The notes beneath the pieces are model-generated. The model made no database searches. It worked only from the letters and a program-made list of their open reading frames with translations, and had not been told where the DNA came from. Below, one piece after another: positions 560 to 38,382 of a stretch of DNA of 38,402 nucleotides. Made by a program: the position numbers and the translations under genes. Source of the DNA: a virus. The stretch spans positions 1 to 38,402 of the IMG/VR virus record IMGVR_UViG_3300032898_000011. One strand, written 5' to 3'. Position 1 is the first letter of the stretch. Every line of letters starts with the position of its first letter.

Positions 560-1714
560 CTAAACGGCTTCCGCGAGCCGTCCGAGTTCCGCCTCCAGCT
601 TCGTCACGCGCTCCGGCCCAAGCATCTCGGCGAAGTACCTCAGCTGGCTTTTCTCCATGGAATTTAACTGTAAGCCACTGTTCTGACGCGATTTAAGAGC
701 CATCCACTTGCTTTCAAAGAAGCGCCGGCTCGACTCGATTTCCTCCTCGGACGGAGGCGTGCCGGAGGGCTGCATCCCCACGCTGGCAGCGCCTGCCGAG
801 CTCTCTTTCACCGTCCAGCGCTTGGTGTCGTGCCACAGCCCCTGACCAAAAAATTTATCCGGTCCCACGGTGAAAACCAGCCTGCCAGCCGCGTTCAGCG
901 CCATGTACGCCTGGTACTGCGCCACCATCGCTGCCACGATCGCCTCGGCCGGCTGGCTGCGCAGTGCTCGCTCCGCCTGCCGCTCGATCGCCCGCTCGGT
1001 CGGCCTGTCGTCGATCCCCAGCTGCTCGCAAACCTCGATTCGCAAACGGACCTTCGCCGGCATCTCGGGAGAGGCGCCCGCGGGGGGATTTTTGGGAACA
1101 GTCCCCCCTGCGCCGCCAGGCGCGAGGGGTGGTTTTAAGTACTTGTTTGTTTTTGTATGTGCTTTTACCTGGGTCTGCAGACCCAGGGTGCTATGGGCGT
1201 CCAGACCCAGGGTGCTATGGGCGTCCAGACCCAGGGTGCTATGGGTCTCCAGACCCAGGGTGCTATGGGCGTCCAGACCCAGGGTGCTATGGGTCTCCAG
1301 ACCCATAGTCAACTGGTTACCCTCTGCGGCGCACTCGTTTACTCTTTTGATAATGGTGGGAATCTTCCGGCTGCGCAGCGTTTCGATGCAGCCGGGCAGG
1401 TCCATCTCCAGATTCAGGGAGTACAGATATTGCCGCCCGCGTGGCGTCCGCGTCTGCTCCCTCCGCAGGATGCCGACCTCCAGCAGGTACAGCAGCCGCC
1501 GCCGCGTCCAGCGCACATCGACCCCCGTACCTGCGGCAAATTCCGCATAGCTGAGCCGGCAGGATGGTCGGCGCCATCCGAAGGTCTGCCGGGCGAGGTA
1601 GAACATGATCTTGCTGTCGGTTCCTTCGAGAACCGGCATCAGTTCATCGAACAGGCAATCCGGGGTCTGGGTGCTGTTGGGAATCCACGGATTGGACCCT
1701 GTTTTCGTTTCCAT
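560..1714 (-). CDS. replication initiator, lambda O-like
   Basis: 384 residues, longer than lambda O (about 300). Residues 8-100 match the phage replication protein O N-terminal winged-helix family: NPWIPN, then a helix ending in YLARQTFGWRR, LSYAEFAAGTGVD and LLYLLEVGILRRE. Residues about 137-182 are five or six copies of an 8-residue repeat (LGLDAHST or LGLETHST). These are encoded by 24-bp DNA repeats that look like origin iterons. A long linker and a helical C-terminus (about 325-384) follow; in lambda O the C-terminal part contacts the helicase loader P. Start ATG is preceded by AGGAGAGATCA. No P or DnaC-type loader is recognisable nearby. The role is inferred: binding the iterons in its own gene and opening the AT-rich tract. 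Confidence 0.85.
   Translation of the reverse strand: METKTGSNPWIPNSTQTPDCLFDELMPVLEGTDSKIMFYLARQTFGWRRPSCRLSYAEFAAGTGVDVRWTRRRLLYLLEVGILRREQTRTPRGRQYLYSLNLEMDLPGCIETLRSRKIPTIIKRVNECAAEGNQLTMGLETHSTLGLDAHSTLGLETHSTLGLDAHSTLGLDAHSTLGLQTQVKAHTKTNKYLKPPLAPGGAGGTVPKNPPAGASPEMPAKVRLRIEVCEQLGIDDRPTERAIERQAERALRSQPAEAIVAAMVAQYQAYMALNAAGRLVFTVGPDKFFGQGLWHDTKRWTVKESSAGAASVGMQPSGTPPSEEEIESSRRFFESKWMALKSRQNSGLQLNSMEKSQLRYFAEMLGPERVTKLEAELGRLAEAV
1132..1167. other. AT-rich tract beside the iterons, candidate unwinding element
   Basis: About 36 bases of T/A-rich DNA inside a GC-rich gene, directly next to the dyad array on the 3' side of the initiator gene. Lambda has the same order: iterons, then AT-rich region. 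It codes for lysine- and threonine-rich residues of the initiator linker. Confidence 0.55.
1168..1305. repeat. iteron array inside the initiator gene, candidate replication origin
   Basis: Five tandem 24-bp units start at 1179, 1203, 1227, 1251 and 1275, with a sixth partial at 1299. Each junction forms a dyad of the type TGGGTCTnnAGACCCA: 1168-1187 (a perfect 20-bp palindrome), 1194-1209, 1218-1233, 1242-1257, 1266-1281 and 1290-1305. Half of the left arms carry CGTCC in place of TCTCC. Lambda's origin is likewise a set of dyad-symmetric iterons within gene O, so origin function is the natural reading, though untested. Confidence 0.75.
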
Positions 1715-4218: not shown

Positions 4219-4457
4219 GCGAAGCAAACGAAGAAACCATCACCATCACCCTTACCCGCGACGAGTTCGACCTGTTCATGCTGCTGATGGGAGAGGCGAC
4301 GGGCTCAGCGATGCGACAGGGCAACGGGGCTCGAGTATGCAGCTACCTCGGGCTGGCCAACAGCGTGAACAAGGACAATCCCCGCTGGATTCCCTACCAA
4401 ATACCGGACGAGAAAAATCAGGCGCCGATCGCGCGCGGATCGGGCGCGAAACACTGA
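4215..4457 (+). CDS. small acidic hypothetical protein
   Basis: 80 residues, last gene of the coupled early plus-strand block. The first third is acidic with a threonine-rich strand (EETITITLTRDEF) followed by a hydrophobic helix (LFMLLMGEATG). No known domain. A hairpin follows 10 bases after the stop. Confidence 0.7.
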   Translation: MSEANEETITITLTRDEFDLFMLLMGEATGSAMRQGNGARVCSYLGLANSVNKDNPRWIPYQIPDEKNQAPIARGSGAKH

Positions 4458-4682
4458 TCCTGCATCTGGCCGATGGAGCTCGCACCCCATCGGCCTGACC
4501 CCCCGGGATCACGGATGCGTGTCGGTTGTGTACATCTCCCACCATCAAAGCACAGTCGTTGCTACCCCTTACGGGGAATATCAAAAGCCCGCCCTCCCTG
4601 CTTACCCTCGAAGCGTATCTCCCCAACACCTGAGCAGAGGCCTCCCCCAACCGGCGCCTGTGCGCAAAGGAAAAGGACTCAA
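4458..4682 (+). promoter_or_regulatory. spacer between early and structural genes, with hairpin
   Basis: 225 bases without a convincing gene. The stem GGCCGATGG (4468-4476) pairs perfectly with CCATCGGCC (4487-4495); there is no T-run after it. A smaller CCCC-TTAC-GGGG stem lies near 4565-4576. This is where a promoter for the structural genes is expected, but I see no convincing -35/-10 pair. Confidence 0.45.
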
Positions 4683-11080: not shown

Positions 11081-12256
11081 ATGAACCGCCAATTTCGCGC
11101 GGCCGAGGAATCCCCTCTAGTCGCGTTCATCGCAACCCGTGTGATCGCGCCCATCGTCTGGTTTCTGCTGACGATCGGAAGCGCCTTCGCGTTCTACCTG
11201 AAACTGCAGGCGCATGCCCAGGTCCTGGCCGCGCAGCTGAATGACGGCGTCTCGCCGGCATCCATGCGCACGTCGAACCTGCCGCAGTCGCAGGTGATCC
11301 ACTACGACAAAAACTTCATCAAGAACCTCAAGGCGAATACGATTTTCCCCCGCCTGTGCGAGCGCCGCGAGCTCCCTCTCAACTCCGGTAACACTCTCGA
11401 GCTGTTCATGTACCAGACGCTGGGCGCGAACACCGTCCAGGCTCCCGAGGGCACGGTCGGCGCGGGCATCACCGTCTCGGTGTCGCAGAACTCCTCGCAG
11501 ATCGGGCAGTATGCCGACTACGTGAACCTGTCCGATATGGCGCGCGCAACCGCCATCGACCCCACCCTCGAAAACATCCAGAAGGAACTGGCGTATCGCC
11601 TGGGCCTCTCGATGTCCATCATCACCCGCAACACCATCGACGGCGCGGGCACCATCGACAGCTCGGTCTACGCCAACACCAAGACCAGCGCGAACTCCCC
11701 GTTCACCCGCAGCGATGTGACGACCAACATCCAGTCGATGGCCGGCCGCAACATCCAGACCTTCGACCGCGGCAAGTACGCGGGTGCGATCCACCCGTTC
11801 ATCGTGGGAGACACGGTGAACGATTCGACCAACAATTCGCTGGTGGACGTGCTGAAGCACACCATCGAGGGCCAGATGCGCCTCGAGGAACTGCCGGCAC
11901 CTGACGGCGACGAAGTGCAGGTCATGGACTGGGGCGGGGCGACCTTCTACCAGACCACCCTGGTCACCCAGACCCCGAACTTCCTGAGCTCCGGGAAAAC
12001 CGCTCTGCGCACCTACCTGGTCGGCGAAGACGGCGTAATCGCCATCTCGCTCGGCAAAAAGGAAGGAACGCAGATCGGCGACGGCGACTGGAGGAACCTG
12101 CAGCTGTGGATGCGCAAGCTCGACGAGCCCAGCGGGTTCGATCCGAGCCGCATGATTGGCGGATTCACTTCGTACAACACGAAGTACACCGTCACGCTGG
12201 TGCCCGATACCACCATGCGCCTCCGCTACGTTGACAGCGTCTCCAACGTCGCTTAA
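11081..12256 (+). CDS. major capsid protein, N4-gp56 type, with N-terminal hydrophobic helix
   Basis: 391 residues. From about residue 75 it follows the N4-gp56 capsid family: FIKNLKANTIFPRLCERREL, NSGNTLELFMYQTL, IGQYADYVNLSDMARATAID, and later a WRNLQLWMRK/PSRMIGGFTSY C-terminal part, an HK97-fold shell protein. Odd: residues 13-40 (LVAFIATRVIAPIVWFLL and on) are one long hydrophobic segment that looks like a transmembrane helix, unusual for a capsid subunit. The next in-frame ATG (residue 62) has no ribosome site, but neither does the first, whose leader is a C-tract. Cleavage of the N-terminus during maturation is possible. Confidence 0.9.
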   Translation: MNRQFRAAEESPLVAFIATRVIAPIVWFLLTIGSAFAFYLKLQAHAQVLAAQLNDGVSPASMRTSNLPQSQVIHYDKNFIKNLKANTIFPRLCERRELPLNSGNTLELFMYQTLGANTVQAPEGTVGAGITVSVSQNSSQIGQYADYVNLSDMARATAIDPTLENIQKELAYRLGLSMSIITRNTIDGAGTIDSSVYANTKTSANSPFTRSDVTTNIQSMAGRNIQTFDRGKYAGAIHPFIVGDTVNDSTNNSLVDVLKHTIEGQMRLEELPAPDGDEVQVMDWGGATFYQTTLVTQTPNFLSSGKTALRTYLVGEDGVIAISLGKKEGTQIGDGDWRNLQLWMRKLDEPSGFDPSRMIGGFTSYNTKYTVTLVPDTTMRLRYVDSVSNVA

Positions 12257-13257: not shown

Positions 13258-14268
13258 ATGGGCGGCAGCACGGTCACAATTCAGAACATCATCGACAACT
13301 GCCGCTCACTCGGCGATATCGCTCCCGTCTTTCCGATCGGAGGGCAGGTCAACACGACTGCTCTCGCGATCGCGAACTCCGTTTTGCGCGACCTGCTCTC
13401 GCAGGCCTTCAACTGGAAGTGGAATCGCGCGAAGGTCCAGCCGTTTTGCGTGACCCAGCTGCAGCAGGACTATGCGCTTGTGGGTGTGAGCAATATCGGC
13501 TGGCTCGAGCACGGCGTCGCGCAGCAGATCAATTCGACGGCGACACCGAAGCCCATCATCTGGCTCGAAGTGGTGCGCGATCTTGAGCTCACCTCGTACC
13601 AGTTTGGAAGACCCCGGCAAATCTCCTGGCTGCCAAACAACCAGCTGCAGCTGGGAGGATGGCCCGGCGCCCAGCAGACCTACACATGGCCGATCGGAAC
13701 CGGCGTTGTCTCGACGCCGGCGAACCCGCCAACCAGCTGGATCGACACGAACGGCAATGTGCTGACGCTCGCCGGCGCCCCCCAGGCCAACTATGGAACG
13801 ACCGGAAGCGAGGCAGTCGCCGCGCCCCTCAACTCGGCCGCAGGGGCGACCCTGGCCGATGGCTCGGTGACGTGGATCGTCTGCGATCCGAACGGGCAGG
13901 GCCTGCGCGTCTCGCCTCTGCCGGCGACCAACGATGTCGTCTGGATGATGTATGTCATCGCCCAGGCGAAGCTGGTCAAATTCACCAAAGTTACCCAGCT
14001 GATTAACCCGATCCCCGACGACTTTTCGAACTACTTCGAGGACGGGTTTATCGCCTATTCCTATCAGCGCTCGGAAGACGCGAAGATCCGCGCGCAGTTT
14101 CAGGGCAGGCACGACGCCTGGATGGCTTCACTGATGCAGGCCGCGCGCTCGGCCGACCGCGAGCGCGATGCTGCCGGCTTCGTCCCCACCGACACCGTTA
14201 TGCACGGCTACGGCGCCCAGGTCTGGGACTTCGGCCCCGCGTGGCCCTTTCCTCCTGTACTCGCTTAA
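13258..14268 (+). CDS. head-tail adaptor or tail tube-like protein, first copy
   Basis: 336 residues. The N-terminal helical part (ALAIANSVLRDLLSQAFNWK) and the later YFEDGFIAYSYQRSEDAKIR helix resemble the helical adaptor proteins of podoviruses (T7 gp11 or P22 gp4 type), which dock under the portal. An insertion of about residues 140-215 contains a strand motif (LADGSVTWIVCD) like those repeated in the nozzle-like protein downstream. The following gene looks like a second, shorter copy. Confidence 0.65.
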   Translation: MGGSTVTIQNIIDNCRSLGDIAPVFPIGGQVNTTALAIANSVLRDLLSQAFNWKWNRAKVQPFCVTQLQQDYALVGVSNIGWLEHGVAQQINSTATPKPIIWLEVVRDLELTSYQFGRPRQISWLPNNQLQLGGWPGAQQTYTWPIGTGVVSTPANPPTSWIDTNGNVLTLAGAPQANYGTTGSEAVAAPLNSAAGATLADGSVTWIVCDPNGQGLRVSPLPATNDVVWMMYVIAQAKLVKFTKVTQLINPIPDDFSNYFEDGFIAYSYQRSEDAKIRAQFQGRHDAWMASLMQAARSADRERDAAGFVPTDTVMHGYGAQVWDFGPAWPFPPVLA

Positions 14269-32327: not shown

Positions 32328-32521
32328 CTCTCGTGCCTCAGCGGGAAGTTGATGTTGAGCGTCACCTCGACGGTGGCGCCGAGTCTCTCGAGCTCCGCGG
32401 CGGTGTTGTAGATCCGCGTGGTCACATCCTGCAGCTGGTCGACCTGGGCGTGGCTGAGCCCGAGCTCGAGCAGCTGCGCGCGCGTGAGGCGCGGATCAAG
32501 ACGTGTACGGCAGCGGGGCAT
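32324..32521 (-). CDS. small helical protein
   Basis: 65 residues, mostly one or two helices (TRAQLLELGLSHAQVDQLQD) then a strand (ATVEVTLNINF). It overlaps the capsid-mimic gene by 26 bases. Not recognised. Confidence 0.65.
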   Translation of the reverse strand: MPRCRTRLDPRLTRAQLLELGLSHAQVDQLQDVTTRIYNTAAELERLGATVEVTLNINFPLRHER

Positions 32522-32936
32522 AGGTGAATAACCCGATCTTATCGTCGGCGGCTTCGGGCAGCGAACGCTCGCGGCAGAGTTCGAACATCGGCGTGTTCTC
32601 CTTCAGATCCGCGATGAACTGCGGCGCAAAACGGAGTTCGCGATCGCGAGGGCAGTCGTGATGGAAGGAGTAATGGAGGTTGTATTCGATCGCCCGGTCG
32701 ATCGCGCTCTCGACTGCGAACTCAGAAAAATCGAGGTAGTCGGCGTATTGGCCGATCACCGCATTTTTGCCGGCCAAGTAAGTGTGGTACTCCCCGGGGA
32801 TCGCCGGCAGGATCTTGTTCGCAACTACGGCGCCGGCTGCAGCTGCGCCCAGAAACAAAAACTTCCTGCGCGTGAGCAGGGTGCGCGCGCGGTCCTCTTC
32901 TTCTTCGGGTGAACGGCGACGGAAAAGATTTACCAA
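32496..32936 (-). CDS. Tat-signal protein with permuted capsid-like segments
   Basis: 146 residues from a TTG with GGAGG seven bases upstream, overlapping the previous stop by seven bases. Residues 22-46 are a Tat-type signal (TRRKFLFLG, then an alanine-rich core). Residues 59-90 (IGQYADYLDFSEFAVESAID) align ungapped with capsid residues 139-170, 13 of 32 identical. Residues 103-142 (FIADLKENTPMFELC, LFTY) align ungapped with capsid residues 75-114, 15 of 40 identical. In the capsid protein the two blocks come in the opposite order. So it looks like a membrane-bound or exported, circularly permuted piece of the phage's own major capsid protein. Function unknown: capsid regulation, decoy or exclusion are guesses. 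Confidence 0.75.
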   Translation of the reverse strand: MVNLFRRRSPEEEEDRARTLLTRRKFLFLGAAAAGAVVANKILPAIPGEYHTYLAGKNAVIGQYADYLDFSEFAVESAIDRAIEYNLHYSFHHDCPRDRELRFAPQFIADLKENTPMFELCRERSLPEAADDKIGLFTYAPLPYTS

Positions 32937-33247
32937 GGGAAACCCTCCGGAAACAGGTTAGCGGGCGGGTGCCTGAGTATCTCAGAAACGCGCTGGATCG
33001 CGCGCTCGGCGCGCTCCGGAGTCTCGAAGGAAATTTCGAGCCTTCCCTCGGCATTGGTGAGAATCCACATCGCGATTTTCCGACACATATCCTCGAAGCG
33101 GTATTCGTGGCGCGGGCGCCAGGTGAGTACCTCAAACGGCACAGGAGGCGCGTGGGGCGCCTCCTGTGGTTTGGGTGAGGGGTTGGGTCCCCCGGAGGGG
33201 TGCGGGCTCGTCCTGCGGCCTCCAGGCGTCGGCGCGGGGCATTTCAT
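32930..33247 (-). CDS. small hypothetical protein, proline-rich start
   Basis: 105 residues from the ATG at 33247, which shares ATGA with the stop of the tiny membrane protein upstream; a longer open frame exists but would run through two other genes. The first 40 residues are proline-rich. The rest is a compact alpha/beta unit (MCRKIAMWILTNAEGRLEIS, AERAIQRVSEILRH). Not recognised. Confidence 0.7.
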   Translation of the reverse strand: MKCPAPTPGGRRTSPHPSGGPNPSPKPQEAPHAPPVPFEVLTWRPRHEYRFEDMCRKIAMWILTNAEGRLEISFETPERAERAIQRVSEILRHPPANLFPEGFPW

Positions 33248-36769: not shown

Positions 36770-36789
36770 GAGCCATTCCTTTCGTGGTG

Positions 36790-36803
36790 CGGGCGAACCC
36801 GCT
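36790..36803 (-). promoter_or_regulatory. leader hairpin, cassette copy 1
   Basis: GCGGG-TTCG-CCCGC on the minus strand, followed by ACCACGAAAGGA, the ribosome site of the gene starting at 36769. The UUCG tetraloop makes it a very stable small RNA hairpin just before the translation start. Confidence 0.7.
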
Positions 36804-36865
36804 GCCAGTGTTGGATGCAACTATAGGGGCGAAGTTATAGCTTCGTCAATAAGTCAAAGGTCCGC

Positions 36866-36905
36866 GCGCGAATCAGCTGCAACTCGCGCGCGGATCGGTT
36901 GCTAG
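36866..36905. repeat. paired 18-bp repeats, pair 1
   Basis: GCGCGAATCAGCTGCAAC at 36866-36883 and GCGCGGATCGGTTGCTAG at 36888-36905, 22 bases apart start to start. Between them CCGCGCGCGA and TCGCGCGCGG also form a perfect 10-bp inverted repeat. The pair overlaps the TAG of the clamp-motif peptide gene. Confidence 0.65.
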
Positions 36906-36991
36906 AACAGGGACAGCTGGGTAGGTTGCGGGAACAAAGCAGCCTGCGGGCGGTTCTCGCGCGTGAGCTCGGCGCGGTCTTCGTCGTCAAT
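36902..36991 (-). CDS. 29-residue peptide with sliding-clamp binding motif, ATT start
   Basis: The frame reads (M)DDEDRAELTRENRPQAA, then LFPQPTQLSLF and stop. QLSLF at the very end is the consensus beta-clamp binding pentapeptide. No ATG, GTG or TTG is in frame; ATT at 36991 is nine bases after AAAGGA, the same spacing range as the other cassette genes. The clamp-loader-like gene lies upstream in the same operon. A peptide that docks on the host clamp is the inference. The non-standard start is the weak point. Confidence 0.5.
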   Translation of the reverse strand: MDDEDRAELTRENRPQAALFPQPTQLSLF

Positions 36992-37014
36992 GAGTCGGAA
37001 TCCTTTCGAGTGGT

Positions 37015-37028
37015 GCGGGCGAACCCGC
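37015..37028 (-). promoter_or_regulatory. leader hairpin, cassette copy 2
   Basis: Same GCGGG-TTCG-CCCGC hairpin followed by ACCACTCGAAAGGA, ahead of the clamp-motif peptide. Preceded on the minus strand by CACCACTTTTATC. Confidence 0.7.
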
Positions 37029-37040
37029 GATAAAAGTGGT

Positions 37041-37080
37041 GCGCGAATCAGCTGCGATTCGCGCGCGGATCAGGTGCTAG
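37041..37080. repeat. paired 18-bp repeats, pair 2
   Basis: GCGCGAATCAGCTGCGAT at 37041-37058 and GCGCGGATCAGGTGCTAG at 37063-37080, again 22 bases apart. GCGCGAATC and GATTCGCGC give a perfect inverted repeat around AGCTGC. The pair overlaps the TAG of the small membrane protein gene. Confidence 0.7.
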
Positions 37081-37199
37081 TGGTGCGGGTTTTCTAGCAG
37101 ATACATGGCGAGAACGATCAGCGCGGCGGCCAAGACAAAGGCAGCTTGCGTAACAATCACTCGCACAATTCGCAGGGCGGAGAGGATGCGCGCGGCCAT
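37077..37199 (-). CDS. small membrane protein
   Basis: 40 residues: a basic start (MAARILSALRIVR) and a hydrophobic helix (AAFVLAAALIVLAMYLL), ending ENPHH. Its ATG shares one base with the upstream stop (TGATG). One transmembrane helix with a positive inside end. Role unknown. Confidence 0.65.
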   Translation of the reverse strand: MAARILSALRIVRVIVTQAAFVLAAALIVLAMYLLENPHH

Positions 37200-37447
37200 C
37201 AGATGCGCTCCAGTCTGGCCGCAAATTCGGCATCTTCGCGCAGCTGGTTCGCGCGGTGCGCTTCAATCGCGCGCGCCATCGCAACGGACTGGATGGAATC
37301 CGATGCGCTGCAGGTATACGCAGGCGACCAGCGAATAAACCAGAGCCCGTCAGAAGCAAGCCAGGCATCAGCAGCAAACCCGAATTGCTGGCGAGACCAG
37401 CGCAGCAACTCAGCTTCTGTAAGTGGGGTAACTGAGAGGATAGTCAC
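37199..37447 (-). CDS. small hypothetical protein behind leader cassette
   Basis: 82 residues from a GTG with AAAGGG seven bases upstream. Tryptophan-rich middle (LASDGLWFIRWSPAY) and a helical, arginine-rich C-terminus. The repeated leader hairpin precedes it. Not recognised. Confidence 0.65.
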   Translation of the reverse strand: MTILSVTPLTEAELLRWSRQQFGFAADAWLASDGLWFIRWSPAYTCSASDSIQSVAMARAIEAHRANQLREDAEFAARLERI

Positions 37448-37468
37448 GTCGAATCCCTTTCGAGTGGT

Positions 37469-37482
37469 GCGGGCGAACCCGC
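37469..37482 (-). promoter_or_regulatory. leader hairpin, cassette copy 3
   Basis: GCGGG-TTCG-CCCGC followed by ACCACTCGAAAGGG, ahead of the gene starting at 37447. Preceded by CACCACTTTTCA on the minus strand. Confidence 0.7.
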
Positions 37483-37493
37483 TGAAAAGTGGT

Positions 37494-37533
37494 GCGCGGA
37501 TCAGGTGCGAAACCCGCGCGGATCAGGTGCGAA
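37494..37533. repeat. paired 18-bp repeats, pair 3
   Basis: Two identical copies of GCGCGGATCAGGTGCGAA, at 37494-37511 and 37516-37533, 22 bases apart. The pair begins right after the TGA of the clamp-loader-like gene. Confidence 0.8.
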
Positions 37534-37534
37534 T

Positions 37535-38212
37535 TCAGATGCAGAGCAGTTCCGTTTCCAGCTTCATCAAGGCCTCGCGAACATTGTTATTCGCTTCTTT
37601 GACGATGCGCGCGAAGTTAGGCGCAGGCGCGTCGCCAGCTTCCGCGCGCCATACGTTCTCTAACAGCGCGATTGCGTCTTTGCTCATGCCGTAGGAACTA
37701 AACTCGATGGTGCGCAGCCGCGAAAGGAAACGCGGTTCCAGGCGGTCTGTCGCGTTAGCAGTGAGGATGAAAATGGTATCGGGCGGAAACGCGGTCGAGT
37801 CCAATTTCGACAGTAAAGCCAGCTGCGCGGCTGCGCTCATCTGATCTGCTTCGTCTATCAGGATCAGGTGCGCTTTCAGGCCTGCGCGCGGTACATAGTG
37901 GCAGGTTTCGATGGTGCGCTTTACCGTCTCCAAGTTGCACTCCTGGGACGGGATATGGTGCAACTCAGCGGGCATCATATCGGCCAGCGCAAGCGCCATC
38001 GTCGTTTTTCCCGTTCCCGGGGGACCAATGAACAGCCAGGCGCTGGGAAAGGGTTTCGCGGCCAGTTTGGAGAGAATCTTGCGCGGTTTTTCAAGGCCTG
38101 CGAATCCATCCAGAGTGACCGGACGGTATTTTTCAGTGAGGGATTGCGGAAAGGCTAGAAAGTTCTGTGCGGGTGAGAAAGCATCGGCAAACAAAGCGCT
38201 GGAAGCGGCCAT
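37535..38212 (-). CDS. clamp-loader-like AAA+ ATPase (RFC/DnaX type)
   Basis: 225 residues. LTEKYRPVTLDGFAGLEKPR opens the protein as in RFC small subunits and DnaX (KYRP...G). Walker A GPPGTGKTT (63-71), Walker B LILIDEAD, sensor 1 IFILTANA and FLSRLRTIEF where the SRC arginine finger motif lies (here SRL). It is shorter than RFC or DnaX subunits (about 320 or more) and lacks a collar domain. It may load a phage or host sliding clamp or act as a T4 gp44-like subunit. No clamp or polymerase gene is in the window. AAAGGA lies nine bases before the ATG. Confidence 0.85.
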   Translation of the reverse strand: MAASSALFADAFSPAQNFLAFPQSLTEKYRPVTLDGFAGLEKPRKILSKLAAKPFPSAWLFIGPPGTGKTTMALALADMMPAELHHIPSQECNLETVKRTIETCHYVPRAGLKAHLILIDEADQMSAAAQLALLSKLDSTAFPPDTIFILTANATDRLEPRFLSRLRTIEFSSYGMSKDAIALLENVWRAEAGDAPAPNFARIVKEANNNVREALMKLETELLCI

Positions 38213-38232
38213 TTCTGAAGTTCCTTTCAGGT

Positions 38233-38246
38233 GCGGGCGAACCCGC
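38233..38246 (-). promoter_or_regulatory. leader hairpin, cassette copy 4
   Basis: GCGGG-TTCG-CCCGC followed by ACCTGAAAGGA, ahead of the AAA+ ATPase gene. It falls inside the predicted 5' leader. Confidence 0.7.
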
Positions 38247-38277
38247 TAGCGATTCGGTGAAACGTGGTGCGAGTCCT

Positions 38278-38307
38278 GTTATCGCCGAAGTGTCCCCCGC
38301 GTGTCAA
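38278..38307 (-). promoter_or_regulatory. sigma-70-like promoter of the right early operon
   Basis: On the minus strand a perfect TTGACA (38307-38302) is followed after 18 bases by GATAAC (38283-38278), four of six bases matching the -10 box. A run of seven T lies just upstream of the -35 and could act as an UP element. Transcription would start near 38271, leaving a leader of about 60 bases that contains hairpin copy 4. Confidence 0.6.
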
Positions 38308-38315
38308 CAAAAAAA

Positions 38316-38328
38316 TGCGCAGTGCGCA
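38316..38328. promoter_or_regulatory. palindrome TGCGCAGTGCGCA, operator candidate
   Basis: A 13-base near-perfect palindrome made of two TGCGCA units, eight bases upstream of the -35 box. Related copies occur at 33626-33637 and 18673-18684 and a partial one at 82-90, the first two followed by T-rich DNA with TTTAATCC. Confidence 0.5.
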
Positions 38329-38342
38329 TGATTTAATCCCAA

Positions 38343-38382
38343 TCCGCACCTGATCCGCGCATGATTCGCACCTGATCCGCGC
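38343..38382. repeat. paired 18-bp repeats, pair 4, inverted
   Basis: TCCGCACCTGATCCGCGC (38343-38360) and TTCGCACCTGATCCGCGC (38365-38382), the reverse complement of the motif in pairs 1-3 and again 22 bases apart. It lies upstream of the promoter. The last 20 bases of the window hold nothing else recognisable. Confidence 0.75.

Follow-up and report, generated by a model that had tools for sequence, protein, structure and literature searches.

Capsid protein segments in swapped order behind a Tat-like leader in a soil phage, with capsid slices on other carriers in related phages

The window analysed here is the whole of an IMG/VR virus record from a soil phage (38,402 bases). On its minus strand, within the early-strand region, positions 32496-32936 hold an ORF of 146 aa (hereafter the slice ORF), in which a Tat-like leader is followed by two blocks homologous to the major capsid protein (MCP), placed in swapped order. 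Its GC content per codon position (0.62/0.42/0.72) is coding-like, and a ribosome-binding site, GGAGGG (32943-32948, minus strand), lies 6 nt ahead of the TTG start. Coordinates, strand, start codon and early location had all been given in a first-pass annotation and were confirmed. At the N-terminus, a twin-arginine motif precedes a hydrophobic segment (TRRKFLFLGAAAAGAVVANKI), with a Tat-like signal at aa 21-43 (LTRRKFLFLGAAAAGAVVANKIL; 32808-32876, minus strand) and a predicted helix at aa 23-42; RRxFL is kept in the family, and RRxF of this leader is retained in seven relatives. The leader had been described as a strong Tat-type motif. While the motif and the hydrophobic stretch are present, both Tat profiles scored below their cut-offs (TIGR01409, 14.5 vs 16.7 bits; PF10518, 11.1 vs 22.7 bits); the TIGR01409 cut-off is passed by the relatives G002, G045, G047, and G058. 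The slice ORF thus shares RRxFL and a hydrophobic segment near the N-terminus with Tat signal proteins, but differs from them in scoring below both cut-offs and in a mature part made of capsid slices instead of an enzyme or cofactor protein. No anti-phage defence family was matched among PADLOC profiles, and no match was obtained by tblastn against phage and plasmid collections, by a peptide-pattern search with the slice ORF alone, or in a first contig scan of the genome collection; these searches yielded no close homologue of the slice ORF. Its predicted fold is of low confidence (pLDDT 52, pTM 0.20; alignment of seven sequences).

The MCP gene of the window lies at 11081-12256 on the plus strand and belongs to the N4-gp56 type, the source family of the two blocks. 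Its product matches PHROG 1357 (2e-15) and, below the cut-off (53 vs 60 bits), TIGR04387. A structural model built with 39 relatives (pLDDT 74) matches solved capsids, those of phage N4 and of Shigella phage Moo19, at E about 1e-12 (Foldseek to the N4 capsid 9e99, E about 2e-12), and on this model the HK97 fold of the MCP is secure. The portal protein of the window is of the SU10 type (Pfam, 5e-18).

Comparing the slice ORF with the window MCP by BLASTP aligned aa 61-84 with MCP residues 141-164 (13/24 identical, E 4e-6) and aa 94-142 with MCP residues 66-114 (16/49 identical, E 3e-7), close to the 28 identities in 72 positions of the first-pass annotation and in agreement with its two capsid-derived blocks in swapped order. 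Block 1 (IGQYADYLDFSEFAVESAIDRAIE) is encoded at 32685-32756 on the minus strand, and its MCP counterpart at 11501-11572 on the plus strand; the segment encoding MCP residues 66-114 spans 11276-11422 on the plus strand. Part of the second alignment has another source. Where the two blocks join, a 40-bp patch (32624-32663, minus strand; aa 92-105) is 95% identical to 13350-13389 on the plus strand, within a tail gene at 13258-14268, and is read in the slice ORF from the opposite strand and in another frame. True block-2 homology therefore begins near aa 105, so that block 2 comprises aa 105-142 (32511-32624, minus strand), homologous to MCP residues ~77-114. The patch also implies that material from a structural gene entered the slice gene comparatively recently. 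Patch and tail-gene counterpart form an inverted repeat whose copies are spaced by almost exactly half the record (19.2 of 38.4 kb).

Several controls support the capsid homology of both blocks. The block-MCP alignments scored 67 and 73, as compared to a shuffled mean of ~24 (sd 3.7; maxima 48 and 51 in 2000 shuffles), that is, 11-13 standard deviations above that mean, and among all window ORFs the MCP was the best partner of each block. Profiles gave a split result: Pfam, PHROGs, and NCBIfam returned no capsid match for the slice ORF or for the blocks alone, whereas a lineage-specific MCP profile matched the ORF with E = 2.1e-12, with no shuffled ORF at E < 0.05 in the families completed; block-1 and block-2 profiles gave E values of 5e-9 and 7e-6, respectively. 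In the predicted MCP structure, block 2 takes in the end of the N-arm together with the up-strand of the E-loop (105-111); block 1 takes in the strand that follows the E-loop (142-151) and the beginning of the spine helix (162-187). The slice ORF is therefore related to the N4-gp56 MCP family (TIGR04387/PHROG 1357) through its N-arm/E-loop and E-loop/spine-helix segments, but is far from a complete capsid protein: at 146 aa it covers just ~20% of the MCP model, lacks the A-domain, the full HK97 fold and the native segment order, carries a Tat-like leader, and is matched by no public capsid profile.

Searching the records of MCP relatives, in which numerous contigs are only fragmentary, revealed small Tat-leader ORFs with an MCP slice in seven related phages. 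Block 1 follows the leader in G045 (L119:3792-4094; 100 aa, extending into the spine helix) and in G004 (L120:6764-6985; 73 aa, overlapping the portal end by 4 nt), while G047 carries block 2 (L121:3190-3844; 104 aa), together with an overlapping upstream ORF with ATIGQWADY. G002 holds the spine helix only (L011:934-1467), G061 an MCP slice (L158:7711-8322), and G058 a C-terminal MCP slice followed by IGQYADY (L215:4041-4328). In G069, the ORF lies downstream of the portal and has block 1 and then block 2, as in the window (L242:6956-7204). This recurrence, possibly joined by a fusion in L235 (see below), supports the swapped order as a real architecture. An assembly chimera was rejected, as the architecture recurs in contigs of different metagenomes. 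Across 50 related records, TIGR01409 scored above its cut-off four times, each time in a slice protein (4/4). The stricter idea that every Tat ORF carries a slice was rejected, because G065 and G069 each have a slice-less Tat-leader ORF (MQLSRRSFIASLAGALAVPRLALPAP...; L258, G065:C1 about 4456-4548, and L260, G069:C1 66-149); the link between Tat leader and capsid slice is strong but not absolute. Only one relative is in culture, Tunturi_3, which has an MCP at 46% identity and an Acidobacteriota strain as its host.

Capsid slices also occur on other carriers. The block-1 heptad IGQYADY, searched in any codon usage, is present in only 38 contigs of all IMG/VR. Outside MCPs it was found in 60-80-aa DTGxW proteins (G038, G051, G052, G056, and G062), in G053 and in G057, with chance-like matches in L172/L177, L178, and L191, and 8/13 of the non-MCP contigs checked also contained the family MCP or pieces of it. 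As the family searches used block 1 with its heptad, this IGQYADY-rich picture is biased. A candidate assignment of the C-terminal part of the DTGxW proteins to another MCP region was rejected (hhalign probability 0.2%). In G057, a set of zinc-ribbon-like ORFs (L220 3075-6812, minus strand) includes several fused to different MCP slices, and the zinc-ribbon domain had no match outside G057 across IMG/VR. Taken together, the G057 slices tile much of the MCP. A second contig scan yielded one MCP in a MAG labelled Bacteroidetes and one fusion in an Acidobacteria MAG, L235, where an ORF at 885-1475, named deoxyribosyltransferase-like by sequence look only and located on a contig binned in that MAG, ends in TATIGQYADYINFSTLA followed by a tail with weak likeness to block 2. 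Its block 1 is clear (86 vs shuffled 31), while block 2 taken by itself lacks significance (39 vs shuffled 29, maximum 41).

Two further kinds of MCP-related gene were observed among the relatives. Compact MCP paralogues of 160-200 aa lie near the MCP (L065 12962-13462, L081 11336-11881, L024 7301-7786, and L057 7609-8208); they apparently keep N- and C-terminal capsid parts with most of the middle gone, and are possible minor capsid proteins. MCP genes broken into several frames were seen in L218 (10971-13217; G055) and L219 (8409-10931; G053), with the G055 gene interrupted at IGEYA/DY by an insert containing a LAGLIDADG-like ORF. Rfam searches of seven loci, including the split MCPs, returned only tRNAs; no family of group I introns reached the gathering score.

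In-frame DNA homology between slice and own MCP gene was detected in G045 (70%/105 bp), G047 (76%/58 bp), and G056 (81%/37 bp), indicating that the grafts descend from MCP genes. At the protein level, the first-pass annotation had taken the window protein for a mimic of the phage's own capsid, and this part was not upheld. The window MCP ranks 65/76 for block 1, with 64/75 other MCPs matching that block better, and 5/76 for block 2; over eleven slices, own-MCP ranks were 65, 5, 2, 69, 7, 13, 34, 32, 75, 5, and 76 of 76. Own MCP was the best match for none of the eleven, and the slices carried by relatives likewise failed to track the capsid of their own phage. In several phages, the small protein has IGQYADY while the MCP of the same phage has MGQWADY, MGNYADY, IGNYADY or IGEYADY; in the window, MCP and slice both have the exact heptad. 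The codons of the heptad differ while the peptide is retained.

Based on these features, the slice ORF looks like a member of an undescribed phage accessory group in which N4-gp56 capsid slices are grafted onto unrelated carriers. The reading that we favour, at a probability of roughly 0.35, is that such proteins may interfere with capsid assembly of co-infecting relatives. It is our first choice because elements of subunit contact are found on various carriers and the own MCP is not the best match. In the predicted MCP structure, the slices fall mostly on the N-arm, the E-loop strands, and the first part of the spine helix, which are subunit-contact elements in HK97-fold capsids. The slice ORF would be held in or across the inner membrane via its Tat-like leader, and its N-arm, E-loop strands and spine-helix start could bind newly made capsid subunits; the main effect would be that capsid assembly of co-infecting related phages is poisoned or its subunits sequestered, amounting to superinfection exclusion at the assembly step. 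In favour of such interference, carriers vary (Tat leader, zinc ribbon, deoxyribosyltransferase-like, DTGxW) while the capsid slice recurs, and the genes of the window, G047, G057, and L235 lie in replication or early-type regions. Against it, the genes of G004, G069, and G045 lie within the late structural cluster, a less expected location for an exclusion gene, and Tat export would take the folded protein out of the cytoplasm, the site of capsid assembly, unless the leader just anchors. As the window MCP and its slice share IGQYADY, the phage would also need timing or differences in the flanks to escape self-poisoning. Poor tracking of the own MCP could reflect the plain old age of a graft.

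Satellite proteins that interfere with capsids and the Gag-derived restriction factor Fv1 block assembly or uncoating of another virus. Interference by the slice ORF would resemble them in that a capsid-binding or capsid-derived protein acts on another virus; in contrast to the slice ORF, they are not built from reordered pieces of an MCP mounted on a Tat leader or a zinc ribbon. A broader reading, to which we give even odds, is that this lineage keeps a modular arsenal of capsid slices that would act in trans on the assembly of rivals or on capsid-sensing immunity, made of MCP interface segments that are often permuted, do not match the own capsid best, and are mounted on membrane leaders, zinc ribbons, and enzymes. 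Capsid proteins are normally seen as purely structural. If true, this would point to capsid interfaces being used in trans, either as weapons against other phages or as a shield from capsid-sensing immunity; the slices would then be natural peptide inhibitors of HK97-fold assembly.

The shield function would make the slices decoys, a reading that we hold possible yet less probable than interference. Early capsid slices would occupy host sensors that are otherwise triggered later by the MCP, so that defence stays off. Bacterial sensors that bind MCP are established, as CapRel-SJ46 is activated through binding of the MCP Gp57 (PMC9712102), and a TIR system is reported as a capsid sensor (PMC11312562). 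CapRel-SJ46 parallels a slice decoy in that a separate protein recognises part of the capsid in trans, but there a host protein binds the intact MCP, whereas here a phage carries isolated slices on carriers. One capsid core on different carriers would suit an epitope decoy, as would the non-late position of slice genes in several phages. However, no epitope is common to all slices, given that G002 has only the spine helix and the Tat protein of G047 only N-arm and E-loop; many slice phages have an altered heptad in their own MCP (MGQWADY, MGNYADY, IGEYADY) and would need no IGQYADY decoy; and a Tat leader fits poorly with a sensor in the cytoplasm.

A membrane role in head assembly, in which an anchored slice would co-assemble with the leader-bearing MCP of the same phage so that head formation begins at the inner membrane, appears unlikely to us, although it draws on a distinct feature of these capsids. 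The window MCP starts with a hydrophobic leader (aa 1-55; 11081-11245, plus strand), one long predicted helix at aa 12-52, and such leaders, ~40-70 extra N-terminal residues including a hydrophobic segment, occur on the window MCP and on those of over 15 relatives (G001, G004, G005, G006, G045, G049, G056, G058, G061, G062, and L236-L245). Records whose MCP has the hydrophobic leader include L005, L013, L015, L078, L088, and L236-L245. About 65 other MCPs begin at the normal N-terminus and have no leader. The leader is well conserved across L237-L244, with the motif MRxxSVAAxRGRAFFxKYxVPxIEFICAFGGQFFxYTGNVGRVHA in one subgroup, and its sequence suggests membrane contact of capsid subunits, raising the separate question of a head assembly associated with the membrane. 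Tat-slice genes were more common in leader-MCP phages than in others (6/16 vs 2/33, counting records of 20 kb or longer; Fisher p 0.01, kinship ignored); because leaders cluster on the MCP tree, this association is no independent evidence. A slice gene adjoining the portal in G004 and G069 would also fit membrane-anchored assembly. This reading is opposed by the slices' failure to track their own MCP, by carriers that have no membrane segment, and by G001, G064, and G068, which share the same leader and in whose ~40 kb records no Tat-slice gene was found. In literature searches on Tat together with capsids, on capsid decoys, and on MCPs with membrane leaders, we found nothing describing such proteins.

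Equally improbable in our estimate is a by-product of illegitimate recombination, which would copy MCP pieces into small, fast-evolving genes with a function unrelated to the capsid. The out-of-frame tail-gene patch is such copying within the slice gene itself, and the varying gene position, the interrupted MCP genes of relatives (in G055 by the LAGLIDADG-like insert) and the two slice-less Tat ORFs point the same way. Random copying, however, should embed slices of terminase, portal, and tail proteins too, and these were hardly seen: with one filter applied to six proteins, embedded slices numbered 12 for the MCP, 0 for terminase, 3 for portal, 1 for scaffold, and 3 and 2 for tail proteins, the non-MCP cases being mostly split genes or fragments or shared domains. 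Across these six genes, slicing is specific for the MCP. The recurring order of block 1 then block 2, and the heptad peptide retained despite differing codons, likewise argue against a by-product.

Two other sets of repeats were noted in the window. A 24-bp tandem repeat (1146-1329) inside a replication-O-like gene (560-1714, minus strand) encodes an eight-residue protein repeat, LGLETHST/LGLDAHST. Between early genes, the region 36784-38382 contains repeated motifs of 21-47 bp (GTGGTGCGGGCGAACCCGC; GCGCGGATCAGGTGC) in direct and inverted orientation, which are possibly operators or an origin.
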